NCBI RefSeq assembly: GCF_000428045.1
Contig: NZ_ATZE01000011.1
Span: forward strand, 1-64,000
DNA length: 64,000 bases
Direction: 5' to 3'
Origin: Sedimenticola selenatireducens DSM 17993
Lineage (GTDB): Bacteria > Pseudomonadota > Gammaproteobacteria > Chromatiales > Chromatiaceae
Part shown: positions 19,928 through 37,145 of the stretch, one piece after another
Layout of the letters: every line of letters begins with the position of its first letter
How positions within the stretch are numbered: position 1 is the first letter of the stretch
Translations under genes and position numbers: made by a program
The notes under the pieces: generated by a model
Told to the model about the DNA's origin: nothing
The model's input: only the letters and a program-made list of their open reading frames with translations
The model's database searches: none

Positions 19928-20112
19928 TATTCTCTCCTGCTGTCATGCTCCGGAACACCACGGAGTGATGCCGTGGTGGATGCGCTGTCACTTATCCCGA
20001 TCTGACCTGGCTTGAAGAGCCCACCCGCAGGAGCGGCTTCAACTGCGAATTTCGCGGCTGGTGCCACTCCTGCGAAAAACACTCCAATGCGGCAGGTAAT
20101 CTGGGATATAGC
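19928..20112. repeat. Hairpin and REP-like palindrome between formate dehydrogenase FeS and cytochrome b genes
   Basis: Two structures lie in this otherwise tight operon. One is a perfect 8-bp stem CACCACGG / CCGTGGTG with a 7-nt loop at 19956-19978. The other is a REP-like palindrome at about 20028-20080 built from CGCAGGAGCGGCTTC and its interrupted complement. They could stabilise the upstream mRNA or lower transcription into the cytochrome b gene. Similar repeats occur near 43316-43375. Confidence 0.7.
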
Positions 20113-20742
20113 CTATTTTTTCATGCTGCTCTTGCCCTCCATGCCGCGTGAAGCTCGGAATGCGGCATTCTGGTAGGAAACCCCACGGTTCAGCACGCTG
20201 GCTCCCCGGTTGATGACCCGTTCGCGGTAAATATCCGCGATCACATTCGCATCACCGGCCAGCAGGGCCTTGGTGGAACACATCTCGGCACACAGCGGCA
20301 GCTTACCCTCGGCCAGTCGGTTGGAGCCATACTTGCGCCGCTCCTCGGCACTGAGGTCTTCCTCGGGACCACCGGCACAGAAGGTGCATTTATCCATTTT
20401 GCCACGCGACCCAAAGGCCCCTTCCTGGGGAAACTGCGGTGCCCCGAAGGGGCAGGCGTAGAAGCAGTAACCACAACCGATACAGATGTCCTTGTTATGC
20501 AGCACCACGCCGTCGAGGGTATCGTAGATACAATCCACCGGGCAGACCGCGATACAGGGCGCATCGGAGCAGTGCATGCAGGCGACGGAGAGCGAACGCT
20601 CACCCGGCTCGCCATCCTTGATAGTCACCACGCGGCGGCGATTCACCCCCCAGGGCACCTCGTTCTCGTTTTTACAGGCGGTGACACAGGCGTTGCACTC
20701 GATGCAGCGTTCAGCGTCACAATAGAATTTCATTCGAGCCAT
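20113..20742 (-). CDS. Formate dehydrogenase iron-sulfur (beta) subunit
   Basis: The 209-aa four-cluster ferredoxin carries electrons from the molybdopterin subunit to cytochrome b. Four [4Fe-4S] motifs are visible: CIECNACVTAC (from residue 14), CMHCSDAPCIAVCP (from 56), CIGCGYCFYACP (from 87) and a last cluster made from CTFC and the CAEMC segment. There is no signal peptide, so it would be exported with the TAT-borne catalytic subunit or stay cytoplasmic. It follows the catalytic subunit by 16 bp. Confidence 0.94.
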   Translation of the reverse strand: MARMKFYCDAERCIECNACVTACKNENEVPWGVNRRRVVTIKDGEPGERSLSVACMHCSDAPCIAVCPVDCIYDTLDGVVLHNKDICIGCGYCFYACPFGAPQFPQEGAFGSRGKMDKCTFCAGGPEEDLSAEERRKYGSNRLAEGKLPLCAEMCSTKALLAGDANVIADIYRERVINRGASVLNRGVSYQNAAFRASRGMEGKSSMKK

Positions 20743-20758
20743 CGTCTTATCCTCTTGT

Positions 20759-23656: not shown

Positions 23657-23687
23657 TGCATTCCCCCTGCTGGGCGTTGGGTGCCGA

Positions 23688-23897
23688 TCAGCTTGCCGTG
23701 GTTTTGTAGTATTCAAGGATATGCGGGGTCAGGCGATAGCCCTTCTGCTCCTTTGGCTGACCGGGAGAATCCTCTTCAGTCGCCACCACCACACCCGGCA
23801 ACACCGTAGCGGTTGCCACGCCCACACCGGTCACCAGCGAACCCTTGATGAATTTCCGTCGTTCACTATCAAGGTGCTTTTTCTGATCCTGTTTCAT
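23688..23897 (-). CDS. Small twin-arginine formate dehydrogenase-associated protein
   Basis: The 69-aa protein has the twin-arginine motif ERRKFIKG (about residues 10-17), a hydrophobic segment and a short polar tail. It matches the 'formate dehydrogenase region TAT target' family, found next to formate dehydrogenase catalytic genes and thought to be a small exported partner. GGAGGAG stands just before the ATG at 23897. Its function is not established. Confidence 0.85.
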   Translation of the reverse strand: MKQDQKKHLDSERRKFIKGSLVTGVGVATATVLPGVVVATEEDSPGQPKEQKGYRLTPHILEYYKTTAS

Positions 23898-23938
23898 TGC
23901 AACTCCTCCCGCAGGGGACAAAAAGATTAAGGGCTCCA

Positions 23939-24604
23939 TCAGACCTGCATGGACAGGTAACGCCGCTCTACCTCCATGAAGGCAATACCGAAGCGGCCCA
24001 CCGCGCGATAAAACACGGCGGATCGCGCCTCACTCAGATCAATAAAAAAACGCTTACACCAATCGGCCATATGGGTATTGAAGAAATCTGCCTGACGGTC
24101 GTGTGGTACGGCATCGCTGATCAGCAACTGCATCACCTCACACAAGGCCGCCGCATGATCTTCCGGCTCGTGTACCCCGGGATCGCGCTGAAATCCCAAT
24201 GCCGCCAGGTCATCCCGCAGGCGTCCCAGTGGCCGCTCCATCAGAAACCCGGTGAGATACCAGGAGCCATAAGGCACCAGCTCGCCCCGGCCCAGGCCGA
24301 TAAACAGCGCGTGATATTCATCATCAATGGCTTCGGGTCGACAGGTTGTGGCCGCCAGTCCCAGCATGGACATGGCCAGGGCCATCTCATCGCCGGTTTG
24401 TTCGACCGGGGCAAAACCGGACACCCAATCCAGCCGCTCCTGATCCGGTGGGCGGCTCAAGAGTGAAGCCAGCAATCCATAGGCACCGGCACGATAGCGC
24501 TGCTCCGGAGATTGCTCATTGTCACCCGCTGAGATCGTGGCGGTATTGGTTTGTGATTGTTGTTCCAATAACTCTGTCCGCATAGCTTCGACCTGATTCG
24601 CCAT
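23939..24604 (-). CDS. TorD/DmsD-family molybdoenzyme chaperone
   Basis: The protein (221 aa from the ATG at 24604) is all-helical with the TorD-type core: LLASLLSRPPD near residue 46, EYHALFIGLGRGE near 96, and the LTGFLMERPLG region. These chaperones bind the TAT signal or apo form of a molybdoenzyme until the cofactor is inserted. Its place in the formate dehydrogenase operon points to the catalytic subunit as client. GAGGAAG supports the ATG at 24604 over the longer frame. Confidence 0.9.
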   Translation of the reverse strand: MANQVEAMRTELLEQQSQTNTATISAGDNEQSPEQRYRAGAYGLLASLLSRPPDQERLDWVSGFAPVEQTGDEMALAMSMLGLAATTCRPEAIDDEYHALFIGLGRGELVPYGSWYLTGFLMERPLGRLRDDLAALGFQRDPGVHEPEDHAAALCEVMQLLISDAVPHDRQADFFNTHMADWCKRFFIDLSEARSAVFYRAVGRFGIAFMEVERRYLSMQV

Positions 24605-24698
24605 CACATCTTCCTCGTAGTAGCTATGAGCAATGGACGGGCCAACAGGCCCGGTAAAAAAGTGACCGATAAGGCGTAAAACAACCAAACCCGACCGC

Positions 24699-26321
24699 TC
24701 ACTGGAGTGTTTCGCCCTTTACTCCCTGGGCCATGGCCTGGGGATCCTGCACGATATCCACCACGCGGCAATCCTCACACAGGGTCAGCCGGTGGCGAGC
24801 CTTGCTGTCCTGGAACATCCAGTGACCCTCCAGCTTCTTTAACATGTTTTCAATAACCGACCGGGTGGCAAAGGGCTTGCCGCATTCGCTGCAGCAGAAA
24901 GGGGGCTCCCGGTGCAGCAGGCGTATCCGGTTGCGTTCCTCCCGATCGAACAGCAGTCTTGGGGTGATCCAGATGGCATCCTCGGGACAGGTCCGGGTAC
25001 AGATACCGCACTGCAGACAGTTGGCCTCGATAAAACGCAATTGAGGTTCATCCTCCCCCGCCAGCAGCGCCCTGCCGGGGCAGGCACCGACGCAGGCAAG
25101 ACAGAGTGTGCAGGCATCCGCCTCCACCTGGGCGGTACCGAAGGGTGCACCCACCGTCAGATTGACCATCGGACGGGCCCGTGTGGACTGCTCGAACAGA
25201 TGATCGATGGCCATGTAGGCGACCTGTCGTTTCCCGCCATTGGCAGAAAAATTGGCCGGAGTGATCGCTACCTGTGCGTTCTCGACATCAGCCGACAGAC
25301 TCTGCTCATCGACCAGCCGAACAGCGCTGCCCGGATAACCCAGGGCCGCCAGTATCTCTCCAGCGCTCCCAATCTGCTGTTTAACCGCTTCCCCCACGCG
25401 CTCCGGCATCGCCCCCCGATCAAGCAGCAGCACCGATTCGGCGCCATAGGCCAACGCACTCAGCCAGGTCTCCAGTCCGACGCTGGCCAACTCCTCGACC
25501 TCAAGCGGGATCAGGTGGGGTTCAAGTGGCGGCGGCGCGCCGTCGGTATCCGCGCTGATCACCAGGACCGGATTCAGTCCACCCGCCTGCCGATAGGTCT
25601 TGAGTAACAGACGGACCTGCTCCAGGGTGTCCCTGGGTTGCGGGTAACTGTAGCGGATGGCGCCACTGGGACAGACGGTGGCGCAAACACCACCCCCCTG
25701 ACAGCGATGAACATCCACGGTGACCTTTTCGATCAGCGAGCTGATCGCCTCGGCCGGACAGGCGTCAATACAGCGGGTACAGGCGATCTGCCCGGAACGC
25801 CCGTGGGCACAGATCGAGGCGTCGTAATTGAAGTAGCGTGGCTTGTCGAAAGTACCCACCAGGTCCCTGAGCTGTTCAGCCGCCTGCTCCAGACTGGGCT
25901 CATCGGTACCGCTGCAGAGATAACCCGGCGGCTTCATCGGCATGTCCAGCTGCGGTTCGGTTTCCAGATCCAGGATCAGATCCGCCGTGAGTAATTCGGC
26001 ATTGGGTTTGCCCGGCTCGCCCAACTGTAGCCGGAACGCCCCCAGATGCCCGTCAATGCGCAATGTCCGCCCTGCCTGCGGGATTACCGGTACGCCGGGC
26101 AGCTCTTCACCTTCGGTCAACAGCACCTGCGCCCGTAACGGCGGTTGCAACCGGCTGGCAAACTCCAGCGCCTCGTTTCCGCCGATGATCACCACCCTGC
26201 CCCGGGACTGAAACTCGATCAGGTCGGTGGCCTCGACCTTGACGCCGGCAAGTGCGGCCAGGGCCGCTGCGCGGGCTCGCTCGTTGCGCACCCGGATGGT
26301 ATCGGTTATCTGCTCACTCAT
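24699..26321 (-). CDS. 4Fe-4S polyferredoxin of the formate dehydrogenase operon
   Basis: The 540-aa cytoplasmic protein has ferredoxin-type clusters in pairs. One pair lies near residues 171-222 (CAHGRSGQIACTRCIDACP, CQGGGVCATVCP) and another near 400-445 (CTLCLACVGACP, CLQCGICTRTCP). Zinc-finger-like cysteine pairs follow at the C-terminus (CSEC, CEDC). Proteins of this type recur with DUF3305 and DUF3306 proteins in proteobacterial formate dehydrogenase operons. They probably carry electrons or help assemble the enzyme; the exact role is unknown. Its start overlaps the DUF3306 stop (ATGA). Confidence 0.88.
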   Translation of the reverse strand: MSEQITDTIRVRNERARAAALAALAGVKVEATDLIEFQSRGRVVIIGGNEALEFASRLQPPLRAQVLLTEGEELPGVPVIPQAGRTLRIDGHLGAFRLQLGEPGKPNAELLTADLILDLETEPQLDMPMKPPGYLCSGTDEPSLEQAAEQLRDLVGTFDKPRYFNYDASICAHGRSGQIACTRCIDACPAEAISSLIEKVTVDVHRCQGGGVCATVCPSGAIRYSYPQPRDTLEQVRLLLKTYRQAGGLNPVLVISADTDGAPPPLEPHLIPLEVEELASVGLETWLSALAYGAESVLLLDRGAMPERVGEAVKQQIGSAGEILAALGYPGSAVRLVDEQSLSADVENAQVAITPANFSANGGKRQVAYMAIDHLFEQSTRARPMVNLTVGAPFGTAQVEADACTLCLACVGACPGRALLAGEDEPQLRFIEANCLQCGICTRTCPEDAIWITPRLLFDREERNRIRLLHREPPFCCSECGKPFATRSVIENMLKKLEGHWMFQDSKARHRLTLCEDCRVVDIVQDPQAMAQGVKGETLQ

Positions 26322-26929
26322 GATGCCGTTCCATCGTCCGTTGTTAAGCCAGGTTGGCCATTGGCCGCAGAAATCGAATCATTCGCCCCGCTGCCACGGG
26401 GATGGGTATCGTCATGGGTCATGGCAGTCTGCCCCCTGGCCTCGGGTTCCGATTCCTGATCCGGGACCGGTGGCCGCTCTTCAGCAGCGGCAGTTGTCGG
26501 ATCTGTCTGGTCCGACTCCATAGCCGCTTTCAGTCGCTCCTCCGCCATGGCCAGCTGATGCCGCATGTCCGCGGTGATGACGTCTCCCAGTTTGGTAAAA
26601 CTGGTGTAATCGTCATCGTAATCATCCAGGCCGTCCCGGACATTGAAGGCCGCCTGATGAAACAGCTTACGCAACGCCTGCCGGCGCAACGATTCGCTCA
26701 CCTTTTCCGACAGGAAACCGGTGTAATCGGATGTCTCGTCCAGAGATTCCAGGGGCGGCATATCCGCATCCGTGAGTGGCTGCTCCGAAACTTCCTCGGG
26801 AAGCGACGCCTCAGAGGACTCCGCGACCGCCTGGGGCGGTGATGCAGCAGCCCGCTTCAGGCGGGACCAGCGGGAAATAAAACCGCCGGGTGATTGACTA
26901 TCCACGGCATCCTTCTCGCGTCCACTCAT
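26318..26929 (-). CDS. DUF3306 family protein
   Basis: The protein (203 aa from the ATG at 26929) is acidic and proline-rich with low-complexity ends. The family hallmark FISRWSRLKR stands near residue 18, and a short structured core (about 80-130) holds LRKLFHQAAFN and DGLDDYDDDYT. DUF3306 proteins accompany DUF3305 proteins and formate dehydrogenases; the function is unknown. The chosen ATG overlaps the stop of the upstream gene (ATGA), which supports this start over the longer frame. Confidence 0.82.
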   Translation of the reverse strand: MSGREKDAVDSQSPGGFISRWSRLKRAAASPPQAVAESSEASLPEEVSEQPLTDADMPPLESLDETSDYTGFLSEKVSESLRRQALRKLFHQAAFNVRDGLDDYDDDYTSFTKLGDVITADMRHQLAMAEERLKAAMESDQTDPTTAAAEERPPVPDQESEPEARGQTAMTHDDTHPRGSGANDSISAANGQPGLTTDDGTAS

Positions 26930-27444
26930 AACGCCGCACTCCCGCCAGTCTCCTTGCGCCAATCCGTCAAACGGCGCTTTTGCCTTTTTTCCGGCACAAA
27001 GTGATTCAGCACAAACAGCTCGCACCAGCGATAAAGCTCCGGCGGCATGGCAACCGCGTAGACGGTTTCGTCAACCTCCTCGCAGGCATTGGCCTGATCG
27101 AAACTGAGGCTGAGCAGAAAAGGGACCGGTGTGCCCTCCCCGTTCTCCCGGGCCATCACAAAACAGCGGGGCGTGGGGGAACAGAGGTTGTGGTAATAGC
27201 TCTCACACTCATCGGCATGCAGCTGCAGGCGGAATCCACTGTACAGGTAGTGGCATATTTCACCCTGCTGGTGCACCAGGCTTACCGCCTGCGGTGCCGC
27301 CTCCCACGGGGCGGCGGTGACGCCGACTGCCTCCCACAGATATGTTTGCCAGGGACTTGTCGCGGGTGATCGCTGCATCACTACCGACAGTGAGAAATCG
27401 GTTGGCGCCGGCCCATTCAGATCATCGACAGGTTTTTCGGACAT
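26926..27444 (-). CDS. DUF3305 family protein, first gene of the formate dehydrogenase operon
   Basis: The 172-aa protein has the DUF3305 hallmark MQRSPATSPWQTYLWEAVGV near residues 22-41. It is the first gene of a ten-gene minus-strand operon that runs to 16906. DUF3305 proteins are known only by association with formate dehydrogenase operons. A GAGGCG ribosome binding site precedes the ATG at 27444. A sigma-54 promoter lies at 27484-27499, predicting a leader of about 28 nt. Confidence 0.82.
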   Translation of the reverse strand: MSEKPVDDLNGPAPTDFSLSVVMQRSPATSPWQTYLWEAVGVTAAPWEAAPQAVSLVHQQGEICHYLYSGFRLQLHADECESYYHNLCSPTPRCFVMARENGEGTPVPFLLSLSFDQANACEEVDETVYAVAMPPELYRWCELFVLNHFVPEKRQKRRLTDWRKETGGSAAL

Positions 27445-27483
27445 CACACATCGCCTCGTATCCACTCTCCGTCAGAACTCCAA

Positions 27484-27499
27484 CGCAAAGAACATACCA
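27484..27499 (-). promoter_or_regulatory. Sigma-54 promoter of the formate dehydrogenase operon
   Basis: On the minus strand the sequence reads TGGTATGTTCTTTGCG. It has GG at -24 and GC at -12 with exact 10-bp spacing, and TTTGC at -12. It differs from the consensus TGGCACG-N4-TTGCW at three positions. The predicted start lies near 27472, 28 nt before the first gene. Confidence 0.78.
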
Positions 27500-27574: not shown

Positions 27575-27591
27575 TGCGGCAAAATGTCACA
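27575..27591. promoter_or_regulatory. Palindromic upstream site 1 (fdh/moaA)
   Basis: TGCGGCA-AAA-TGTCACA matches the palindrome TGNGRCA-N3-TGTCNCA. The same motif occurs at 33155 and 36286. It lies about 76 bp upstream of the -24 element of the formate dehydrogenase promoter and 108 bp upstream of that of moaA, a normal distance for an NtrC-type activator site. Confidence 0.65.
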
Positions 27592-27607
27592 GCTAAACCT
27601 GGACATT

Positions 27608-27631
27608 GGGACAAATGGCACCAGTTGTCCC
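27608..27631. promoter_or_regulatory. Inverted repeat GGGACAA-N10-TTGTCCC
   Basis: Perfect 7-bp inverted repeat with a 10-bp spacer, in the middle of the fdh-moaA divergent region. Its half-sites resemble those of the 17-bp palindrome, so it may be a second activator site, here about 70 bp from the moaA -24 element. Confidence 0.5.
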
Positions 27632-27698
27632 ACCGGACAAACAAGCACCACCGGGACAACTTGACCGGCGGCCGCATGGAGCAATAACCCTAGTAATT

Positions 27699-27714
27699 AG
27701 GTATGGTATTTGCT
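27699..27714 (+). promoter_or_regulatory. Sigma-54 promoter of moaA
   Basis: AGGTATGGTATTTGCT has the GG-N10-GC spacing and a perfect TTTGCT -12 element. It shares GGTATG-N3-TTTGC with the formate dehydrogenase and HTH/PBP regulator promoters. Predicted start near 27726, 25 nt before the moaA ATG. Confidence 0.75.
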
Positions 27715-27750
27715 CGGAGCTGACTCTACACTTTGTCTTGAGGAGTGGTT

Positions 27751-28782
27751 ATGGATGAGTCAGAGTACATCAGCAGCAGTGCTACGACAGAGCGTCAGGG
27801 CCTGATCGACCGATTTGGCAGGGAGATTAAGTATCTGCGTATCTCGGTTACCGACCGGTGTGACCTGCGCTGTGTCTACTGTATGTCGGAGGAGATGCAG
27901 TTTGTACCCCGCTCCCAGCTGCTGACCCTGGAAGAACTCTACCGTATCGGCAAAACATTCGTCGAACTGGGGGTCAACAAGATCCGCATCACCGGTGGCG
28001 AACCCTTGACCCGCCGGAACATCATTCATCTGTTTCAGTCGCTGGGCCAACTGGATGGCCTGAACGATTTCACCCTTACCACCAACGGCACCCAGCTGCC
28101 GAAATATGCCAAAGCACTCAAGGCGGCCGGTGTCACCCGGATCAATATCAGCCTGGATACCCTGCAACCGGACCGTTTCCACGCCATCACCCGCACCGGT
28201 GAGCTGCAACGCACCCTGGATGGTATCGATGCCGCGCTGGATGCCGGTTTCGGGCGCATCAAGATCAATTCGGTTATTCTGAAACACCGTAATCACGACG
28301 AGGTGGTGGATCTGGTGCAGTTCTGCCAGGCGCGCGGCATGGATATAAGCTTCATCGAGGAGATGCCCCTGGGGATAATCAGCGAGCATGATCGCGCCGA
28401 GGCCTACTACTCCAGCGACCAGATTCTGCAGGATCTGCAACAGGTGTACTCCCTGCTGCCCACGACGGAAACCACTGGCGGTCCCTCACGCTACTACCGG
28501 ATCAGCGACAGCGAGACCCGGGTGGGCTTTATCTCTCCCCACAGCCACAACTTCTGCGACAGTTGCAACCGGGTACGTATGACAGCCGAAGGCCGATTGC
28601 TGCTCTGCCTCGGTCAGGAACACTCCATGGATCTGCGCCGTGTACTGCGTGCACATCCGCTGGATGATGCACCGTTGCGCGCCGCCATACGAGAATCCAT
28701 GAATATAAAACCCAAAGGTCACGATTTCGATCTCACCAGTCAACCTGTGCTATTCAGACACATGAACGCCACCGGCGGCTGA
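27751..28782 (+). CDS. moaA: GTP 3',8-cyclase MoaA
   Basis: MoaA is a radical SAM enzyme that, with MoaC, makes cyclic pyranopterin from GTP, the first step of molybdenum cofactor synthesis. The 343-aa protein has the N-terminal cluster motif CDLRCVYC (about residues 30-37), the ITGGEP motif, the C-terminal cluster CDSCNRVRM ... C and the conserved C-terminal GG. GAGGAG at 27740-27745 selects the ATG at 27751 over the GTG two codons earlier. It diverges from the molybdenum-dependent formate dehydrogenase operon, which needs its product. Confidence 0.96.
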   Translation: MDESEYISSSATTERQGLIDRFGREIKYLRISVTDRCDLRCVYCMSEEMQFVPRSQLLTLEELYRIGKTFVELGVNKIRITGGEPLTRRNIIHLFQSLGQLDGLNDFTLTTNGTQLPKYAKALKAAGVTRINISLDTLQPDRFHAITRTGELQRTLDGIDAALDAGFGRIKINSVILKHRNHDEVVDLVQFCQARGMDISFIEEMPLGIISEHDRAEAYYSSDQILQDLQQVYSLLPTTETTGGPSRYYRISDSETRVGFISPHSHNFCDSCNRVRMTAEGRLLLCLGQEHSMDLRRVLRAHPLDDAPLRAAIRESMNIKPKGHDFDLTSQPVLFRHMNATGG

Positions 28783-28871
28783 TCGTAAAATCTGGTGATG
28801 TGAATCAACACACGTTCCTCCGTAACGTGCCATAGTTACACGTGAGAGTATCCAACCGGAGGAATCAACCC

Positions 28872-29147
28872 ATGCTGACTTTTGAAGACTGTCTCGGCCT
28901 CTGTGAACTGGATGAAGATGAAATCATGGCCATTGCCGAGCATGAACATGTTCCGGAAATCGTCGCACTGGAGATGGCCCAGTATCTTATCCAACTACCG
29001 GACGGAACGGTGACCATCAAGCGCATGATAGTGGAGGATATCCAGCACGCCAGGGAGAACAACAACCTGGCCCATGCGGAACTGCTGCAAAGTGCGCTGA
29101 AGCATTTTATCGCCACTCACCCCGAGTTTGACGCATACCGCCGCTGA
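28872..29147 (+). CDS. Small conserved-looking acidic protein downstream of moaA
   Basis: The 91-aa soluble protein begins MLTFEDCLGLCEL and is rich in acidic residues and predicted helices. It has no signal peptide or known motif, and I do not recognise the family. GGAGG at 28857-28861 fixes the start. It lies 89 bp after moaA in the same direction. The gap contains CACGTT-N7-AACGTG. Co-transcription with moaA is possible but no function can be assigned. Confidence 0.7.
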   Translation: MLTFEDCLGLCELDEDEIMAIAEHEHVPEIVALEMAQYLIQLPDGTVTIKRMIVEDIQHARENNNLAHAELLQSALKHFIATHPEFDAYRR

Positions 29148-29277
29148 TCCGTGCGCCCTGCTGACGAACGTCATTCCGGCGCTGGGACTGTTGCATGCTG
29201 AAATCTGAATCCCGCCTCATTTCATCGGATTTTGCCGGCCACAGGTTGAAGAAGGCCGGCGGAGTCTGTACTGGTTG

Positions 29278-29922
29278 TTACATATAGATCCTCTGTTGCT
29301 CTCCCGGATCAGCGAATAACGGTGCCTGAGGGTGCAACCCCGCACCCTTCAGGGGTATGGCACGAATTACGAAACGGCCCGTGCCTCCCGGCAACAGTGC
29401 ATCAAAGGGGTAACAGGTGATCAGCGTGAGCAGGGATTGACCCTGATCCAGCAGCCAGAGATCGCCCTGGTCATGCACTTCCGCACTGACAACCGCATAC
29501 ATCAGCCTGGCACCACTTGCCGGTATCAGTTCAATCAGGTCACCCGGTTGCAGATCCCGGAGAAACCGGAAATGGGTGTCCCGGTGACCACTGAGCACAC
29601 TGTTGCCATCCATACCGGGAGTGGCGGTTCCCGCAATATGTCCTGGTCCGAAAGCCAGAGTCCGGCCGCTGGCACCTGACAGGACAACTTGATCAACACC
29701 GAGCCGTGGCACCCTCAGCCGGGCCACCGGCCAGGTATCGGCCCAGGGCCAGGGGCGCACCCGCGCCTCACCCGCCTGGGTGGTCTCCCAGGCCGACTGC
29801 AGCAGATACTGGGCCAGCCAGGCTTTTGCCTTGATATATCCGCCCTCAGCAATCTGCCAGATACCGGCCAGTATCATCCCGACGACCAGCCAATGCATCA
29901 GGCGATCCCGGGACCGGTTCAT
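29278..29922 (-). CDS. Class GN (marine proteobacterial) sortase
   Basis: This 214-aa membrane-anchored cysteine transpeptidase has an N-terminal helix (about residues 9-26) and a sortase fold with catalytic H113 (LSGHRDTHF), C170 (LITCYPF) and R187. It is predicted to cleave the sorting signal of the VIT/VWA protein encoded directly upstream, whose stop overlaps its start (ATGA). This family occurs as a dedicated one-target system in proteobacteria, with PdsR/PdsS regulators, which are also present in this window. Confidence 0.92.
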   Translation of the reverse strand: MNRSRDRLMHWLVVGMILAGIWQIAEGGYIKAKAWLAQYLLQSAWETTQAGEARVRPWPWADTWPVARLRVPRLGVDQVVLSGASGRTLAFGPGHIAGTATPGMDGNSVLSGHRDTHFRFLRDLQPGDLIELIPASGARLMYAVVSAEVHDQGDLWLLDQGQSLLTLITCYPFDALLPGGTGRFVIRAIPLKGAGLHPQAPLFADPGEQQRIYM

Positions 29923-32120
29923 AGAACATTCCCCCCATGCACCTTACCATCACTCACCGGTCCCACCCGCACCCCGAAGCCGACACCCGGCCAGCGGGAA
30001 AAGAGCACTCCGCAGGCCAGCAGCAACAGACCAACCAGGAGGTTCCATTCCGACGTCGTTGCCGTTTGCGGCAGGCTGCCGAACACCCTGGCCGCACTCC
30101 AGCCTTGCGGCAGGTTGGTCGGCACCGCCTTGTTTTCCAGCCCCTGATCCGCCGGTCGGGACGGCGTCTTGTCCACGGCCACCAGGCTGGTATAGCGACT
30201 CACCAGCCGGTGGGTCAAGGCAACGTCCAGCACCGCCTTGCGCACCTCGGGCTCGGCAACACCCTGCGCCCGCTGGTCCATCAGATCGGCGATCTTGCGA
30301 CGGGCCCAGAGCTGATGCACCCCGGACCGTGCCGCCCCGCCCCGCAGGGTGACCTGCTGTTGCCAGGGGACGCCGGCGGCATCCCCCGTGAGGGTCAGCG
30401 GCAGGTTCGGTTGTTGCAGCTTCAGCGCCACCAGAACCGGCTCTCCCAGATAGAGATCGGGTATCCGCGCCGGCCACATCTCCACTGGCTGATCTTGCGG
30501 CCAGTGGATCTCGATATCGGTAAGTCGCGGCGTCTCCAGCTTGCTGAACAGGGCCGCCATCTTCTCACCCACTTCCGCCACCTTGCCGATGTAGGTGAAG
30601 GTGCCCCGACCAAACTGCGCCGCCCGGGTCATGAAAAAGCTGTTCGGTGCCGAGCCGATTCCCACGGTGAACAGACGACTGTCACCAAGTTGCTGATGAA
30701 TCAGGCTGAACAGCGCCTGCTCGTTACCCACGCTGCCATCGGTGAGAAAGATAATCTGGCGCAACACCCCCTGCTCCGGCTGCTGGCCCAGGGCCAGTTG
30801 CAGCGCCGGCAACATCTCGGTCCCGCCATCCGCCACCAGTCGATCGACGTAAGAAAGGGCCCGCTGCAGGTTGTCCGCAGTAGCCGCCACGGCCCGGGAA
30901 AACAGCGCCGAGGTTTGATGATTGAACTGGATGACATTGAATCGATCGGCCGTTGTCAGCCGCTCCAGTGCCAGTTTGAGTGCGGCGCGGGCCTGGATGA
31001 TGGAATCGCCATGCATCGACCCCGATGTGTCGATCACATAGATGACCTCCCTCGGCACACGCAGTGCCGTGGCCCCTGCCGGTGCCGGTGCTGGCGGCAT
31101 CAACATCAGCAACGCATACTCATCACCCTGCCACTGTTCATTGAACAGTGCCGCCTGGGGCGCATTCCCTGGCGCGGGCACCCAGAGCAGCTCAAAATCC
31201 CGATTCGCCGGCACCTGCGCATCCTGCAGTGTCAACTGATAGATTCCCTGGGCATTTTTTTCTGTATTCACCGCATGATAGACGCTCTCCAGATGTGCCA
31301 GCGGCATACCCGGATCCAGCCGAATATGCATCGACACCGGATTGACCGGAGCTTCTGTCGGCGCCACCACCGGTGGCGTGATACGCGAGGCATCGGGCAC
31401 TTCAGGGGTATCCCGCGCCCAGCCATTGCCCTGAAATGCCGTCACCTCAGGACTCCCCGATGGATATCCCGGAATATAGCGGGGTGCCACCACCAGTGGA
31501 AAACGGAGTCTGAACTGCCCCTGGCTGTAGGGAATCGCCTGCTGATACTCGATCTCCACCTGCACCGTCTCACCGGGTGCGATATTGGCCACGGCGGTGG
31601 TAAAGATATTCGGGCGCTCCTGGTCCAGCAGGCTGGCCTTTTTCCCTTCCCGCCTGGCCGCTTCGTAGGCTTTTCGCGCCTCGCCCTTTTCGCGGATCTC
31701 GCCCTCAATCAGGCGTTCACCGATACGCAACCGCATCCGGTCAACCGCCGCCTCCTCGGGCAGGGGAAACACGTAGCTGCCCTCCACCCATTCAGCGGCG
31801 GGATTCCTGAAGCGCTGACGCACCGTCACCCGCGCCAGCATGCCGCTGATATTCATCGCTACATCGGTATGCAGCACCGGCGCTTCCACGACCACACCGC
31901 CACTGGCCTGTTTCAGCAGCAGCGAACCACGCTGTACCAGGTCAGGCCGAATCCGTTCTGACTGCAGTGAGCCGACGTTGTCAGCCGCCTCCACCGGCCT
32001 GATGAAGATGAACACCAGTAACCCGAGCAACAGCGATGTAACAACACCCGCCAGCAGGGACGCCAGGGAGGTGAACCACATATCCCGTCCCAGATGATTA
32101 ACCGGTTTTTGCTTTGGCAT
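29919..32120 (-). CDS. Marine proteobacterial sortase target protein (VIT and VWA domains)
   Basis: The 733-aa secreted protein has an N-terminal helix (about 18-40), a VIT domain (about 70-190) and a von Willebrand A domain with MIDAS motif DTSGSMHGDS near residue 365. At the C-terminus is a sorting signal: LPQTA at residues 683-687, a hydrophobic segment (NLLVGLLLLACGVLF) and then a basic, glycine-rich tail of about 25 residues. It resembles the inter-alpha-trypsin inhibitor heavy chain layout and is the family target of the adjacent sortase. AAGGGG precedes the ATG. The tail after the membrane segment is longer than in usual LPxTG signals. Confidence 0.93.
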   Translation of the reverse strand: MPKQKPVNHLGRDMWFTSLASLLAGVVTSLLLGLLVFIFIRPVEAADNVGSLQSERIRPDLVQRGSLLLKQASGGVVVEAPVLHTDVAMNISGMLARVTVRQRFRNPAAEWVEGSYVFPLPEEAAVDRMRLRIGERLIEGEIREKGEARKAYEAARREGKKASLLDQERPNIFTTAVANIAPGETVQVEIEYQQAIPYSQGQFRLRFPLVVAPRYIPGYPSGSPEVTAFQGNGWARDTPEVPDASRITPPVVAPTEAPVNPVSMHIRLDPGMPLAHLESVYHAVNTEKNAQGIYQLTLQDAQVPANRDFELLWVPAPGNAPQAALFNEQWQGDEYALLMLMPPAPAPAGATALRVPREVIYVIDTSGSMHGDSIIQARAALKLALERLTTADRFNVIQFNHQTSALFSRAVAATADNLQRALSYVDRLVADGGTEMLPALQLALGQQPEQGVLRQIIFLTDGSVGNEQALFSLIHQQLGDSRLFTVGIGSAPNSFFMTRAAQFGRGTFTYIGKVAEVGEKMAALFSKLETPRLTDIEIHWPQDQPVEMWPARIPDLYLGEPVLVALKLQQPNLPLTLTGDAAGVPWQQQVTLRGGAARSGVHQLWARRKIADLMDQRAQGVAEPEVRKAVLDVALTHRLVSRYTSLVAVDKTPSRPADQGLENKAVPTNLPQGWSAARVFGSLPQTATTSEWNLLVGLLLLACGVLFSRWPGVGFGVRVGPVSDGKVHGGNVL

Positions 32121-32255
32121 GACGATCCCCTTGGGTTTTTTTCGGTTTTTGGCTGAACCCGGCCCGCGGAGGCGGGGACAATCGGTAAAGTTCCCGGTTC
32201 ATCGTCTCCGGGGAACAGTAGAGAAAGTGCTCACTCAGCGGTTGGATGAGCCGAC

Positions 32256-33002
32256 TCATGAGGTGGCCCCCGACAGGAACCGGATCACCACCTGGCGGTC
32301 GTAGCCCAACCCCTCGCGGTCCTCGGCCGGATAACGCGCATCCGCCTCGCCATGCGCCTGCCGGACAATGCGCTCCGGGTCCACGCCATGCAGGATCAAC
32401 TGCCGGCTGACCGCCTCCGCTCGCGCCACACTCAGATTCTGGTTGCCCCCCTCCCTGCCACGACGGTCTGCATGGGCATGAATCACTATCCGCAGCTCGC
32501 CGATAGTCCGCAGCGCCACTGCCAGATGTGTCAGCTCACGCAGATCATCCGGTTCCATGACGTTTTGCCCGGTTCGAAAATGGATGCGGTGGACAAAGCC
32601 GTTGGCTATGGCATCCAACTGCTGTTGATAGCTCGATTTTGCCGACTCCAGCCGTTGTGTCAGTTGCTGCACCTGCGATAGCTGTTGCTGTTCAAGCTGC
32701 TCCACCTCCTGCCGGGCACTGCGCAGATCGGATTCGAGCCCCGCACTTCTGCCTGCCAGCACACCCCCGGCGGCACCCAGGATAAGTCCCGGTGGACCAG
32801 CCAGGAGCGCACCGGCGATGGCACCGATTCCGGCACCTTGCCACTCACCCGCATAGTGAACGTAACCAGCCATCTGGTCGTCTTCACCAGCCTGCCACTG
32901 TTCCAACCCCAACGCCGTTCCCTGCCCCCGGGTCTGATAAGCATTGGCATTGCCAGCCAACATCACACCGACGATCAGGGAATTAACTACCAGTCTATTC
33001 AT
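32256..33002 (-). CDS. OmpA-family protein of the sortase locus
   Basis: The 248-aa precursor has a signal peptide (ANA cleavage near residue 21), a glycine-zipper hydrophobic stretch (about 55-85), a coiled coil of glutamine-rich heptads (about 90-130) and a C-terminal OmpA-like peptidoglycan-binding domain. That domain contains VIHAHADRRG, NLSVARAEAV and the closing GYDRQVVIRF. It probably spans outer membrane and peptidoglycan. It is 135 bp upstream of the sortase target, same strand, and such proteins recur in these sortase loci. GGGAG supports the ATG at 33002. Confidence 0.88.
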   Translation of the reverse strand: MNRLVVNSLIVGVMLAGNANAYQTRGQGTALGLEQWQAGEDDQMAGYVHYAGEWQGAGIGAIAGALLAGPPGLILGAAGGVLAGRSAGLESDLRSARQEVEQLEQQQLSQVQQLTQRLESAKSSYQQQLDAIANGFVHRIHFRTGQNVMEPDDLRELTHLAVALRTIGELRIVIHAHADRRGREGGNQNLSVARAEAVSRQLILHGVDPERIVRQAHGEADARYPAEDREGLGYDRQVVIRFLSGATS

Positions 33003-33154
33003 CACACGCTCCCGATTGGTCCAGCGCACCATCCCTGGTGAAGCAGTCATCCTGACTTGCGCCGGTTGCTTGTTATGTTGCGGACATTAAAAGGGAGTGG
33101 GATGGCAGGTGGATTTCCTTCTCCGGGCAATCTGCTGACGGATTCGGGCAAAAT

Positions 33155-33171
33155 TGTGGCAATTTGTCCAA
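33155..33171. promoter_or_regulatory. Palindromic upstream site 2 (HTH/PBP regulator)
   Basis: TGTGGCA-ATT-TGTCCAA matches TGNGRCA-N3-TGTCNCA except near its last bases. It lies 107 bp upstream of the sigma-54 -24 element of the regulator gene. The flank CAAAATTG resembles the flanks of the other two copies. Confidence 0.6.
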
Positions 33172-33277
33172 GCCGGCCAGCAGCATTGGTACAAATCTGA
33201 CCACATTCGGGGAGCCGGTTTCGACAAACAGGCGGAAAAACCGACTAACTATCGGGAGAACGGATATAAAACCATCG

Positions 33278-33293
33278 CGGTATGAAATTTGCC
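33278..33293 (+). promoter_or_regulatory. Sigma-54 promoter of the HTH/PBP regulator gene
   Basis: CGGTATGAAATTTGCC keeps GG-N10-GC and the GGTATG-N3-TTTGC core seen at the formate dehydrogenase and moaA promoters. Predicted start near 33305, which requires translation to begin at 33337 or later and not at the first in-frame codon at 33289. Confidence 0.7.
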
Positions 33294-33336
33294 TGAAGTA
33301 TCAGGGCACATTCGAGCAAGACTAGAGAATCCACTG

Positions 33337-34251
33337 ATGGCGGCCTTAATGTCACCCCACAGCGATGCGTTCATGAGTGTCAAGCAGGTGGCCGAATACC
33401 TCCACCTGAACGAAAAGAAAATCTACGCACTGGTCAATGAGGGCGGCATTCCGGCCACCAAGGTTACCGGCAAATGGATGTTTCCACGTGAGTTGGTTAA
33501 CCGCTGGATGCTGGACTCGACTCACGGTGGCCTGCTGAGCGATCGGCTGGTGATCTCCGGCGGGGAAGACCCGCTGCTCTATCATCTGGTCCAGGAATTT
33601 GCCCGGGCGACGGGGGCGCATGCCCTGATCAGTTATACCCCTACCAGCACCCGTCTGGGGCTGGACCTACTGCAATCCAACCGGGTGGACACCTGCGGCA
33701 TTCACTGGGGACCGGATACTGAAAGCCACATCCGTCACCCGGCACTGTTGAGCCAGTATCCCCAGCATCGTCAGTGGGTGCTGATTCGCGCCTTCAAACG
33801 GGAACAGGGACTGGTAATCACTCCGGCGATTACCGGGCGGGTCAAAGAGCCACAACCACTGTTTGATCCCCGGTATCGCTGGGTACTGCGGCAGACCGGA
33901 TCGGGGGCACAGCGATTCCTGCTGGAGCTGCTGAGTCACTACGGCATCGACAAGGACCAATTAAACTGTTGCATCACCGCGCTGTCCGAACGGGAGGCAG
34001 CCGCCGCCATCGCCATGCAGCGGGCCGATATCGCACCCGGCACCCGAGCCACGGCAACCGCGTATGGCTTAGGTTTTATACCCTGTGGCTGGGTCTCATT
34101 CGATCTCGCCCTACCCCGGGCGATCTGGTTCAGAAAACTGTTTCAGGAACTCCTGACACGATTGAAATCCCAACCGTGCCAGGCAATGGCTGACCTGTTT
34201 ACCGGCTACAACCTGGATGGTGCCGGAGAGTTGGTTTGGGGGGATGAATAA
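33337..34251 (+). CDS. Excisionase-type HTH regulator with PBP-like substrate-binding domain
   Basis: The 304-aa cytoplasmic protein has an N-terminal MerR/excisionase-type winged HTH (MSVKQVAEYLHLNEKKIYAL, about residues 13-32) fused to a periplasmic-binding-protein-like domain of the COG1910 type, some of which bind molybdate or tungstate. This suggests an oxyanion-sensing regulator for molybdoenzyme genes (inference). The predicted sigma-54 transcript start excludes the earlier frame opening. Starts at 33337, 33349 or 33373 all remain possible. It converges on the small gene at 34275. Confidence 0.82.
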   Translation: MAALMSPHSDAFMSVKQVAEYLHLNEKKIYALVNEGGIPATKVTGKWMFPRELVNRWMLDSTHGGLLSDRLVISGGEDPLLYHLVQEFARATGAHALISYTPTSTRLGLDLLQSNRVDTCGIHWGPDTESHIRHPALLSQYPQHRQWVLIRAFKREQGLVITPAITGRVKEPQPLFDPRYRWVLRQTGSGAQRFLLELLSHYGIDKDQLNCCITALSEREAAAAIAMQRADIAPGTRATATAYGLGFIPCGWVSFDLALPRAIWFRKLFQELLTRLKSQPCQAMADLFTGYNLDGAGELVWGDE

Positions 34252-34274
34252 CGGATGGAAACCCCGGCAGGCTC

Positions 34275-34523
34275 CTAGTCGAGATTTTTCAGACCTTTCA
34301 GGGCAATATCCAGCCGCTCTCCCTCCAGATACTGGAAGCAGCGGGCACTCCACTCATCGGGCGTCATACCGCCATCGGCAAGCATCGCCGAGACCACCTG
34401 CCCCCACTGGATCAGGTAGGCATTCGTTTCCAGCAGTTTGGTGTGCTGCTCGAGAATTTCCCGGCGTCTTTTATCCAGCTTCTCAAGCTCTCTTTCAACA
34501 AATAACCCATGCTCATCGGTCAT
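34275..34523 (-). CDS. Small helical protein of unknown function
   Basis: The 82-aa protein has a charged coiled-coil N-terminus (VERELEKLDKRRREILEQH) and no signal or known motif. AAAGGT six bases before the ATG at 34523 fixes the start and shortens the open frame by 30 codons. It lies downstream of the sigma-54 activator gene on the same strand, 205 bp away, and may belong to the same regulatory block. I do not recognise the family. Confidence 0.6.
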   Translation of the reverse strand: MTDEHGLFVERELEKLDKRRREILEQHTKLLETNAYLIQWGQVVSAMLADGGMTPDEWSARCFQYLEGERLDIALKGLKNLD

Positions 34524-34728
34524 GACAGTACCTTTAATTAATCGATCAATATCTTTGCGGTATTTGCATGGATAGTATCCTGACACCACAGCCTGCCTCA
34601 ACTGACAGTCCATATAACTTTCGGAACCTGCAGCCGCAACGTCGACGGAATAACTTATTGATCACAGCCGACCAAAAACAGATTTCTGAACGGAAACACC
34701 AACAGCAAGAAAAAATCAACCGGGATAC

Positions 34729-36138
34729 TCAGTCACCCCGTTTGCCGCGCTGCCCACTCATTTCCCAGGCCTGAACTTTTCTCTCCAGCGTCTTGCGCGA
34801 TATACCCAACAGTCGCGCCGCGGCGGATTTGTTGCCCCCTTCGCGCTCCAGTACTCTGAGAATATGCCGCTTTTCCACACCTTCCAGCTGCAGATCGGCA
34901 TCGCTATCCCGCGCTACAACTGCCACATCTGCGCTACTTGGCCGGGCCAGGCATTGACTGGGACTACTGTTGAGCAGCAGGCATCGTTCAATTACATTTT
35001 TTAGTTCGCGCACATTACCCGGCCAGTTGTAACTACTCAGGCAGGCCAGATCGCCAGCAGAAAATTCCGGCGGCTCAACCCCCAGTTCCGACGCCAGCGA
35101 CTTGCTGAAGTAGTCGGTCAACACCGGAATATCGTCCAATCGTTCCCGCAACGAAGGCATACGGATGGAGAGTACATTCAAGCGGTAAAAGAGATCCTCA
35201 CGAAACTCCCCGGAGCTCACCAGCTCACCCAGATCCTGGTTGGTTGCGGCGATAATCCGTACCACTACGGGAACCTCCTTGTTGGAACCGACCGGCCGCA
35301 CCGTTCGATCCTCCAGCACGCGCAACAGATGAGCCTGCATGGAGAGCGGCATCTCGCCAATCTCATCCAGGAAAAGAGTCCCCTCATTGGCATAGGTAAA
35401 CAACCCTTCACGCGCCTGATGGGCTCCGGTAAAGGCGCCCTTGATATGACCGAACAGCTCACTTTCCAGCAACTCGGCAGAAATAGCGCCGCAATTCACC
35501 GGCACAAAACTGCCGGAACGGCCACTCCACTGATGAATCGCCCGGGCGGCCAGCTCTTTCCCCGTGCCGGACTCGCCTTCAATCAGTACGGTCGAGGGCA
35601 TGGGCGCAACCCGTTTGATCACCTGGCAGAGGCTTCGGATCAGCTCGCACTCCCCCACCATTCCCGACTTGTCAAAAATGTGCTCCACTTGGCGGCGTAG
35701 CACGAAATTCTCCCGCTGCATCTTTTGGCGATCCATGTAACGTTTCACCGAAGCCAGCATCTGCTCCATGCGAAAAGGTTTCATGATGAAATCCTCCGCA
35801 CCGGCACGAAGTGCGGCGACGGCAGTCTCCAGATCGGCATAGGCGGTCATGAAAATCACCCCGGTTGCGGCTCCCTGCCCGCGCAATGCATTCACCCATT
35901 CAACGCCGGTGCGTCCCGGCAACCGGATATCCGCAATGATCAGGTCAAAATAGCAGCGATCATTCAGTACCTCGGCGGCGGCGGCACTGTCGGCAGTCTC
36001 CACCAAACCGAAATACTTCTGCAGCCCTCGCTGCAGAAAGCTGCGTATTTCCGGCTCGTGATCCACAATCAGTACCGAGGTCATGCGAGTGTTCGACTCA
36101 ACCCGGTCTGGGTCCACTAGATGTTCTCCCACTATCAT
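34729..36138 (-). CDS. NtrC-family sigma-54-dependent response regulator
   Basis: The 469-aa activator has a receiver domain (about 20-135; phospho-acceptor D70 in IIADIRLPG, conserved K120). An AAA+ domain follows with Walker A GESGTGKE (188-195) and the sigma-54 contact loop GAFTGA (234-239), then a Fis-type HTH (GGNKSAAARLLGISRKTLERKV) at the C-terminus. The usual Asp-Asp acidic pair of the receiver reads Asp-His (IVDHEPEI). No partner kinase is adjacent. Palindromic sites and sigma-54 promoters beside it and at the fdh operon make it the likely activator of formate/molybdopterin genes. The start is uncertain: a GTG at 36141, ATGs at 36138 and 36084. Confidence 0.9.
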   Translation of the reverse strand: MIVGEHLVDPDRVESNTRMTSVLIVDHEPEIRSFLQRGLQKYFGLVETADSAAAAEVLNDRCYFDLIIADIRLPGRTGVEWVNALRGQGAATGVIFMTAYADLETAVAALRAGAEDFIMKPFRMEQMLASVKRYMDRQKMQRENFVLRRQVEHIFDKSGMVGECELIRSLCQVIKRVAPMPSTVLIEGESGTGKELAARAIHQWSGRSGSFVPVNCGAISAELLESELFGHIKGAFTGAHQAREGLFTYANEGTLFLDEIGEMPLSMQAHLLRVLEDRTVRPVGSNKEVPVVVRIIAATNQDLGELVSSGEFREDLFYRLNVLSIRMPSLRERLDDIPVLTDYFSKSLASELGVEPPEFSAGDLACLSSYNWPGNVRELKNVIERCLLLNSSPSQCLARPSSADVAVVARDSDADLQLEGVEKRHILRVLEREGGNKSAAARLLGISRKTLERKVQAWEMSGQRGKRGD

Positions 36139-36191
36139 CACCTTGCTTCTGGAATCTGAGAATTAAAAAGCACAAGGAACCACGCGTCCCT

Positions 36192-36208
36192 GGGGACATA
36201 TTGTTATT
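36192..36208. promoter_or_regulatory. Degenerate palindrome copy near the activator promoter
   Basis: GGGGACA-TAT-TGTTATT keeps the left half-site and TGT of the right half of the 17-bp motif. It overlaps the predicted transcript start of the activator gene, where binding would more likely repress than activate. Confidence 0.35.
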
Positions 36209-36212
36209 CTGA

Positions 36213-36228
36213 TGCAAAAGGGTGACCG
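36213..36228 (-). promoter_or_regulatory. Possible sigma-54 promoter of the activator gene
   Basis: Minus-strand CGGTCACCCTTTTGCA has GG-N10-GC and a perfect TTTTGCA -12 element, but a weak -24 element. It would start transcription near 36201, about 60 nt before the gene, suggesting self-activation. Confidence 0.45.
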
Positions 36229-36285
36229 ATCAGCCCATGCCTATCCGGACAGAAGGGTAAAATCTGCCCCTGCGCTCTCCAAGTA

Positions 36286-36302
36286 TGGGACATTTTGTCA
36301 CA
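36286..36302. promoter_or_regulatory. Palindromic upstream site 3 (activator/mobB)
   Basis: TGGGACA-TTT-TGTCACA is the most symmetric copy of TGNGRCA-N3-TGTCNCA. It lies 58 bp from the probable -24 element of the activator promoter and about 180 bp upstream of the mobB -24 element. Confidence 0.65.
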
Positions 36303-36484
36303 ATTGCCAGCAAGCACTCTTGGACAGTCTGACCTTACAGCGGGGGCATCTATCCCCCAGCCCGGGCGCAGAATAGCCAAACGGGTCCACCCACTCCGAT
36401 AAACAGCCCGTTTTGTTGATTTTATTCTGACCAGCCAGAGGGAATACCAGGCAAGGTTGCATCAAATCCGACACTCTCGCCAAT

Positions 36485-36500
36485 TGGCATTTTTATTGCT
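36485..36500 (+). promoter_or_regulatory. Sigma-54 promoter of mobB
   Basis: TGGCATTTTTATTGCT matches the sigma-54 consensus TGGCAC-N5-TTGCT at all but one conserved base. Predicted start near 36512, about 58 nt before the mobB ATG. Confidence 0.85.
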
Positions 36501-36569: not shown

Positions 36570-37145
36570 ATGATTGAATTCCCGCTCCCGATCCTGGGAT
36601 TCAGCGCCTTCAGTGGCACCGGAAAAACCACGTTATTAACCCGATTACTGCCGATACTGACAACGCAGGGCCTGCGTATCGGTGCGATCAAACATGCCCA
36701 TCACCTGTTCGAGGTGGAGCATCAAAAAAAGGACAGTTATCAATTGCGCCAAACGGGAGCGGACCAGATGCTGGTGACGTCGCGTAACCGGATGGCCCTG
36801 ATTACCGAACTGCAGACACGGCACCCGGAACCGACCCTGGCCGAACTGCTCAACGCCCTGAACCTCTCCACGCTGGATCTGGTACTGGTGGAGGGATTCA
36901 AAAAAGAGCGTTTTCCAAAGATTGAACTGCACCGACCCAGTCTGGGCAAGCGACTGCTGTATCCGGATGACCCCGATATCATCGCCATCGCGACTGATGG
37001 GCATCTCAGTACCCGGCCGTGCCATATTCCGGTGCTGAATCTCAATCAGCCTGACGAAATCGCCGGTTTTCTCCTCGACTACTGTTTTCAGCAACCGGGA
37101 CAGCCATCTCATTTGCCGCCGCTGCTTGGGCAACGGCGACTGTAG
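36570..37145 (+). CDS. mobB: Molybdopterin-guanine dinucleotide biosynthesis adaptor MobB
   Basis: MobB is a P-loop GTPase that assists MobA in attaching GMP to molybdopterin, giving the MGD cofactor used by formate dehydrogenase. The 191-aa protein has Walker A GTGKTTL near residues 15-21, the conserved KHAHH segment near 40 and VEGFKKE near 108. The ATG follows GGAGG at 36558-36562. A near-consensus sigma-54 promoter drives it, and the activator gene diverges from it. No mobA is adjacent. Confidence 0.93.
   Translation: MIEFPLPILGFSAFSGTGKTTLLTRLLPILTTQGLRIGAIKHAHHLFEVEHQKKDSYQLRQTGADQMLVTSRNRMALITELQTRHPEPTLAELLNALNLSTLDLVLVEGFKKERFPKIELHRPSLGKRLLYPDDPDIIAIATDGHLSTRPCHIPVLNLNQPDEIAGFLLDYCFQQPGQPSHLPPLLGQRRL

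Follow-up and report, generated by a model that had tools for sequence, protein, structure and literature searches.

Which protein reads a 17-bp palindrome that occurs in three intergenic regions of one gene cluster, and which genes does that protein control? The question is raised by a 64,000-nucleotide stretch of DNA (hereafter the window) from the 4.59-Mb genome of Sedimenticola selenatireducens DSM 17993 (contig NZ_ATZE01000011.1). Sedimenticola is a genus of sulfur-cycle Gammaproteobacteria, and the cluster carries genes for formate dehydrogenase (FDH) and molybdenum-cofactor synthesis together with two putative regulators. We propose that these palindromes serve as upstream activating sites for the NtrC-type activator whose gene lies at 34729-36141, a reading to which we assign a probability of about 0.86. 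An initial annotation of this DNA had predicted an FDH and molybdenum-cofactor regulon under the neighbouring activator, and this prediction is supported by conservation across genera, by sigma-54 promoters, and by the tandem spacing of the sites.

The palindromes and their surroundings

All three 17-mers of the initial annotation were found at its coordinates and in intergenic DNA. The sites and their further copies are given below, with scores in bits from the matrix described in the next section.

27575..27591, plus strand: palindrome A1, TGCGGCA-AAA-TGTCACA; 14.1 bits; identical in 5/5 aligned Sedimenticola loci; putative enhancer shared by the divergent fdh operon and moaA
27607..27623, plus strand: second copy A2, TGGGACA-AAT-GGCACCA, 32 bp from A1; 12.7 bits; conservation partial
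27652..27668, plus strand: possible third copy A3, CGGGACA-ACT-TGACCGG, 77 bp from A1; 11.5 bits
33155..33171, plus strand: palindrome B1, TGTGGCA-ATT-TGTCCAA, 5' of the HTH/PBP gene; 12.1 bits; site in 9/9 aligned Sedimenticola loci
33187..33203, plus strand: second copy B2, TGGTACA-AAT-CTGACCA, 32 bp from B1; only 1.8 bits; conserved block in 9/9 aligned Sedimenticola loci
36286..36302, plus strand: palindrome C1, TGGGACA-TTT-TGTCACA, between the activator gene and mobB; 20.3 bits, top site of the window
36320..36336, plus strand: weak second copy C2, TTGGACAGTCTGACCTT, 34 bp from C1; 4.6 bits; conservation partial

The genes around these sites are the following, where HTH stands for helix-turn-helix.

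18827..27465, minus strand: fdh operon, predicted target (Pfam/NCBIfam; taken as a single operon from its layout)
27745..28782, plus strand: moaA (GTP 3',8-cyclase), predicted target (TIGR02666 above its cut-off)
33289..34251, plus strand: regulator with HTH_17 and PBP_like (PF12727) domains, hereafter HTH/PBP (Pfam, 3e-39 and 8.8e-13)
34729..36141, minus strand: NtrC-type activator (receiver-AAA+-Fis HTH; Pfam; GAFTGA, Walker A, and arginine finger present)
36570..37145, plus strand: mobB, predicted target (PF03205, 1.6e-46)

The consensus first proposed, TGNGRCA-N3-TGTCNCA, fits the sites at 27575 and 36286 exactly; the site at 33155 has one mismatch, and the conserved form is broader, TGNGWCA-N3-TGWCNCA, with A/T favoured over R at the core position. 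The similar flanks noted for the three sites correspond to the second copies 32–34 bp away, of which B2 and C2 score low by the matrix. Copy A3 aligns with an 18.7-bit site in one related locus (L074) and a 7.3-bit site in another (L075), and is not retained in L071 and L072.

Plain pattern counts alone are weak evidence. The exact consensus occurs at three places in the genome. The window accounts for two; the remaining one (C24:149001) falls in a 530-aa open reading frame (ORF) of a polysaccharide locus, and a match at 145590 likewise lies in a polysaccharide gene. With up to two mismatches the window holds 18 matches against 12.0 expected, a number reached by 8 of 100 shuffles, and with up to one mismatch the genome gives 46 strand-matches, where the reversed control pattern gives 34. 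Allowing two mismatches in the refined pattern yields 41 places in the genome and 59 for its control. Since these counts hardly exceed the control, the case for the sites rests on their conservation in relatives.

Conservation in related genomes

Loci of related bacteria were retrieved by protein similarity, independently of the motif. A matrix was then learned by expectation maximisation from random seeds, using the DNA upstream of the activator gene in 35 non-redundant loci (of 46), none of them from Sedimenticola. All eight refined runs converged on the consensus TGgGACA-AaT-TGTCcCA with a log-likelihood of 212.8, compared with 27.6–28.5 for three letter-shuffled sets, which were started from fewer seeds. 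This matrix, which is blind to the window, ranks the site at 36286 first among all window positions, 27575 second, copy A2 at 27607 fourth, and 33155 fifth; the third rank is taken by 61401, remote from the cluster. Four of the five top sites thus fall within three intergenic regions that make up 945 of the 64,000 bases (binomial probability 2.3e-7, with the top-five cut chosen post hoc).

The enrichment is repeated among the relatives. A symmetric form of the earlier consensus is matched at 10 or more of 12 positions in 30/40 fdh regions and 44/59 activator regions, against 4–5% of letter-shuffled regions. In 54 loci (L071-L124), the 72.6 kb 5' of regulon genes contain 64 sites scoring 12 bits or more, compared with 21 in the remaining 677.6 kb, a count in which some regions had also trained the matrix. 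Alignments within Sedimenticola (5, 9, and 8 loci) show intergenic DNA that is poorly conserved outside islands, and these islands are chiefly the palindrome, the second copy 32–34 bp away, and the -24/-12 boxes. When a second site of at least 4 bits is present within 17–80 bp, the spacing is 31–34 bp in 17/22 fdh regions and in 43/49 activator regions (the training set), as counted without a random-spacing control. Such row counts take in near relatives and some genomes twice, and the fdh and moaA regions form one divergon and are not independent. As the initial annotation had anticipated, the palindromes are conserved 5' of orthologous genes in related genomes.

Sigma-54 promoters next to the sites

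Four genes or operons of the cluster have a sigma-54-type promoter downstream of a palindrome. In the list below, the score is the number of matches to 12 consensus positions and the distance runs from the site centre to the -12 element.

27484..27499, minus strand: fdh operon sigma-54 -24/-12 promoter, TGGTATGTTCTTTGCG; 11/12; 98 bp; conserved
27699..27714, plus strand: moaA sigma-54 promoter, AGGTATGGTATTTGCT; 11/12; 130 bp; conserved
33278..33293, plus strand: HTH/PBP sigma-54 promoter, CGGTATGAAATTTGCC; 10/12; 129 bp; conserved
36485..36500, plus strand: mobB sigma-54 promoter, TGGCATTTTTATTGCT; 11/12; 205 bp; conserved

The fdh regions, which lie outside the training set, give the clearest picture. 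A 12-bit site is present in 30/40, and in 28 of these 30 a box of at least 11/12 lies between the site and the gene (0.3% in shuffled DNA), with the palindromes some 50–270 bp from the promoters. Among the moaA regions, 23/29 have a site, followed by an 11/12 box in 11/23 (shuffled, 0.6%) and by a box of at least 10/12 in 19/23 (shuffled, 3.4%). For mobB the figures are 13/28 with a site and 12/13 with an 11/12 box, and for HTH/PBP 7/70 with a site and 7/7 with a 10/12 box; 11 of the 13 mobB rows and six of the seven HTH/PBP rows, repeats counted, are from Sedimenticola. The HTH/PBP promoter also bears on the start of its gene: because the TTG start at 33289 overlaps the promoter, translation more probably begins at the ATG at 33338.

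The claim that the sites stand 5' of sigma-54 promoters therefore holds for fdh, moaA, HTH/PBP, and mobB and fails for the activator gene itself. In the direction away from the activator, a sigma-54 box is found in 45/52 regions (shuffled, 0.5%). Toward the activator, a site is present in 53/57 regions, of which none has an 11/12 box and one has a 10/12 box; the candidate at 36213-36228 in the window reaches only 8/12 and was rejected. The promoter near the activator is that of the divergently transcribed gene. Two palindromes spaced by roughly three helical turns, combined with sigma-54 boxes, are the usual layout for an AAA+ enhancer-binding protein.

A few other short blocks are conserved in these regions, among them the following two. 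One, AACCCTAGTAAATA, is conserved in Sedimenticola beside the moaA promoter, outside the palindrome and promoter elements. The other (36397-36427, GATAAACAGCCCGTTTTGTTGATTTTATTC), in the interval that separates the enhancer from the mobB promoter, shows partial conservation across the genus and is possibly a site for a bending protein or a second regulator.

The likely reader of the palindromes

The activator has the features expected of the NtrC family, namely the Walker A motif, the GAFTGA loop, the arginine finger, and a Fis-type HTH, and its predicted targets have -24/-12 boxes. Genomes that lack the HTH/PBP gene are informative about which of the two regulators reads the sites. In G031 and G071, no HTH/PBP match was found at E 1e-20, the activator is more distant (51–52%), and two sites 32 bp apart stand 5' of moaA with a sigma-54-like box (11/12 and 10/12). 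In G131, the activator gene has a site before it, and the HTH/PBP gene is likewise absent at E 1e-20. Because the sites persist in genomes without HTH/PBP, the activator is the likely reader.

The HTH/PBP protein may still have a part in the system. With two regulators, the activator would work via the palindromes, and molybdate, tungstate, cofactor, or formate would be co-sensed by the HTH/PBP protein. The two genes co-occur in many genomes, the PBP part partially matches the molybdopterin biosynthesis protein model NF011068, species without the partner kinase described below still require an input, and the genus has the extra conserved blocks AACCCTAGTAAATA and near 36397-36427. None of the conserved elements could be assigned to the HTH/PBP protein, and we regard this arrangement as rather unlikely, if a serious contender. 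It is highly improbable that the HTH/PBP protein binds the palindromes in place of the activator. This protein does belong to the same cluster, contains an HTH, and in Sedimenticola has one site 5' of its own gene, but the sites exist without it before moaA in G031 and G071 and before the activator gene in G131, the paired sites and sigma-54 boxes fit the layout of an AAA+ activator, and 63 of 70 regions 5' of the HTH/PBP gene have no 12-bit site. The gene mostly lacks a site of its own because it comes after fdhD in 42/53 loci. It is extremely improbable that the palindromes of the window arose by chance beside functionally related genes, since the independent matrix, the cross-genus conservation, the spacing, and the sigma-54 boxes speak against it even though the plain pattern counts are barely over control.

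Several observations weigh against reading by the activator. In the genome-wide scan suggested by the initial annotation, 11 fetched sites equal or exceed the score of 27575 and nine of these matches are intragenic, in ORFs of at least 120 aa; the 12 loci examined further (L001, L131-L136, L138, L140, L142, L144, and L148) have no second site at 30–35 bp or 11/12 sigma-54 box. Of the 41 refined-pattern places, three are in the window, 24 in fetched stretches, and 14 outside the inspected DNA. No 12-bit site was found in 10/40 fdh regions and 6/29 moaA regions, and G018, which lacks the HTH/PBP gene, has no site of at least 9 bits in the 4 kb fetched. Three metagenome-assembled genomes (MAGs) from soil (L110, L111, and L123) have good sites before fdh or moaA and no activator above 45% identity, in assemblies that are possibly incomplete; L110 and L123 also have no sigma-54 box on the fdh side. 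Finally, the receiver domain of the window activator retains D71, T99, and K121.

Genes probably under the sites

On this evidence the regulon of the window genome would comprise fdh, moaA, HTH/PBP, and mobB, and further members may exist. The fdh operon encodes a DUF3305 protein, a matchless ORF, a 4Fe-4S protein, a TorD-like chaperone, an FdhA-like protein, FdhB (the FDH3 beta subunit), and a cytochrome b561-type subunit. The beta subunit scores 343 bits against NF038355, where the curated cut-off is 240, which places the enzyme in the FDH3 type; the FdhA-like protein scores 471 bits against the Fdh-alpha model, under its 666-bit cut-off.

In relatives, the gene set consists of the fdh operon, moaA-fdhD-HTH/PBP, and an operon divergent from the activator that starts with mobB or a tupA-like gene. 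The tupA-like gene heads this operon in 36/54 loci, where mobA, mobB, and moeA can follow; the assignment to TupA and tungstate rests on similarity and inspection. moaA precedes fdhD in 23 of the 42 loci in which HTH/PBP comes after fdhD. In Sedimenticola, fdhD is located elsewhere. Other genes stand between moaA and HTH/PBP there, and the HTH/PBP gene carries a site and a sigma-54 promoter of its own. We read this arrangement as suggesting that the site is the address label of the regulon. The intervening stretch in the window (29278-33050), a position occupied by fdhD in most relatives, holds sortase-like, VIT/VWA-like, and OmpA-like genes, named by inspection. A 112-aa ORF without a Pfam match (34275-34613, minus strand) adjoins the HTH/PBP gene and is kept in Sedimenticola loci.

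The tungstate genes are probably outside the regulon of the window genome because tupA there has no good site: its tupA and moeA homologues are on another contig without a site (4.6 bits in the tupA region). Two of the five Sedimenticola genomes, G061 and G112, have a site 5' of tupA (18.5 and 18.7 bits) without a convincing sigma-54 box, and the other three, the window genome among them, have none. In the regions 5' of tupA (L155-L159), the tup operons of Sedimenticola bear CGTTATGTGCTATAAA-CATAACG-like palindromes, which resemble a ModE box.

A fourth member, fdhD-mobA, was considered and dropped. The match directly 5' of fdhD (C11:95279, TGCGGCATTATGCCACA, 7.8 bits) keeps only the part (T)GGCATAAT in the other four Sedimenticola genomes, and this part is a sigma-70 -10 box. 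The Paraferrimonas locus (L118) has an fdh operon, fdhD-HTH/PBP, and activator-kinase; on the side divergent from the activator it has tupA-like genes, mobA, a MobB-MoeA fusion, and moaA, with further sites at 8841 and 7683.

A missing kinase and an altered receiver

In most relatives examined, the activator gene is followed by a histidine kinase gene with an sCache_3 sensor, HAMP, and HisKA. A kinase orthologue was found in three of five Sedimenticola genomes searched (76–100%, the 100% match being probably the query's own genome). A genome search found no orthologue in the window genome (G000) or in G003, G006, G060, and G011. The best match in the window genome, at 115 bits, is 33% identical over the kinase core only and does not represent a cognate kinase. 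In a wider search, the kinase is absent genome-wide at E 1e-60 in 16/16 genomes chosen for having no kinase beside the activator, two of them probably duplicates from the first search; two controls were detected.

The receiver domain differs between the two groups. An intact receiver, defined as D27, D/E28, D71, T/S99, and K121, is present in 35/35 kinase-bearing rows, and the receiver is altered in 16/18 kinase-less rows (intact in L062 and L093). This table leaves out 13 loci that repeat a genome, activator fragments of up to 380 aa, and two rows of undetermined kinase state; L019 and L097 are identical over the tree columns and may be one species. Some of the changes are mild, being only T to A in L075 and L078 and only D to H in L045 and the window. 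In the window, the acidic pocket reads D-H, D, T, K: VDHEP replaces VDDEP, so that a histidine takes the place of one of the two acidic metal ligands, and the change is common to G003. Since D71, T99, and K121 are retained, phosphorylation by another kinase is possible.

The association of kinase absence with receiver change is striking by count and not yet significant after relatedness is considered. A tree built without the receiver gives 11 changes of kinase state, six when only well-supported branches are counted. Six independent pairs comprise four concordant, none opposite, and two without a difference (sign test, p = 0.125). In this tree long branches meet, MAGs may be incomplete, and the change counts are blind to gain versus loss.

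The rest of the protein and its sites are largely kept. GAFTGA and Walker A are present in 18/18 kinase-less activators, including that of the window, and an arginine finger was found in each of the 18 by two search expressions, the second of which recovered nine missed by the first. Of the 18 kinase-less loci, 14 retain a site scoring 12 bits or more at either the activator or fdh, so the activator probably still works without the kinase; L114 and L116 have no such site, and L024 and L025 have none in the short or other stretches scored. As the window genome lacks the kinase, its activator probably acts unphosphorylated or takes another input. A tentative extension, for which we see odds clearly below even, is that the unphosphorylated protein is the active form and that the kinase is an off-switch or tuner that has been repeatedly discarded. 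The receiver would then have decayed, with the AAA+ domain retained and in most cases the DNA sites too, leaving a one-protein regulator whose input may come via HTH/PBP.

Proposed mechanism

The binding, activation, signal, and phosphotransfer steps of the following model are predicted from sequence. Activator dimers would bind two palindrome copies spaced by roughly three helical turns, and the AAA+ ring, once assembled, would make contact by looping with sigma-54 polymerase at four promoters, those of fdh, moaA, HTH/PBP, and mobB. The FDH3 formate dehydrogenase would thereby be switched on together with its required cofactor genes. In most relatives, the activator is presumably phosphorylated by the adjoining Cache-domain histidine kinase; in the Sedimenticola of the window, it is probably unphosphorylated when working, or fed by another input. 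Formate is a candidate signal for the regulon.

Relation to known systems and significance

The NtrC-family regulators AtoC, ZraR, and GlrR are similar in having a receiver, an AAA+ domain with GAFTGA, a Fis-type HTH, sigma-54 promoters, and paired upstream sites. The window activator differs in having its own palindrome and in that a search of its genome yielded no cognate kinase, and it falls under the curated cut-off of the best 25 of the 118 matched NCBIfam models (e.g., AtoC, 403 of 714 bits). The enterobacterial FhlA/HyfR formate regulons are alike in sigma-54-dependent formate metabolism. FhlA senses formate via GAF domains, whereas the window activator has a receiver and no GAF domain in Pfam at E 0.001.

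Sigma-54 control of an fdh operon is already known. The Geobacter sulfurreducens operon GSU0777-0781 is RpoN-dependent and shares a sigma-54 promoter with the present case, and it differs in that the accessible part of the report describes no activator site (PMC2725144). In a 2025 survey, formate dehydrogenases account for 32% of the 176 members of one COG that are under sigma-54 control (PMC12316311). The DNA site, its likely reader, and the gene set appear to be new: no description of them was recognised in searches of an open-access library, a scope that leaves out most subscription journals, in agreement with the initial annotation, which knew of no site of this form for a formate regulon. 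The corresponding pair in Vibrio cholerae is presumably VC1521/VC1522; one published listing gives VC1522 with no function attached.

HoxA-type activators are NtrC-type and provide a precedent for an activator that works without phosphorylation. HoxA is reported to be active unphosphorylated and to be turned off by its kinase (PMC11540253). HoxA governs hydrogenase genes, whereas here the kinase is absent from natural lineages and the activity is predicted. Pseudo-receiver response regulators are likewise orphan regulators with an altered phosphorylation pocket, and a review of them calls their activation a mystery (PMC12632262). A difference is that orthologues with and without the kinase can here be compared within one genus.

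These findings would connect the control of a widespread formate dehydrogenase of sulfur-oxidising and symbiotic Gammaproteobacteria with a DNA site, a likely regulator, and a set of targets. In the relatives, one switch would tie formate oxidation to cofactor synthesis and to an operon that is probably for tungstate uptake. The kinase-bearing and kinase-less orthologues, in part from a single genus, provide a natural experiment on how a response regulator outlives its kinase. If the unphosphorylated protein is indeed the active form, a two-component formate/molybdenum/tungsten switch would have become a one-protein regulator.

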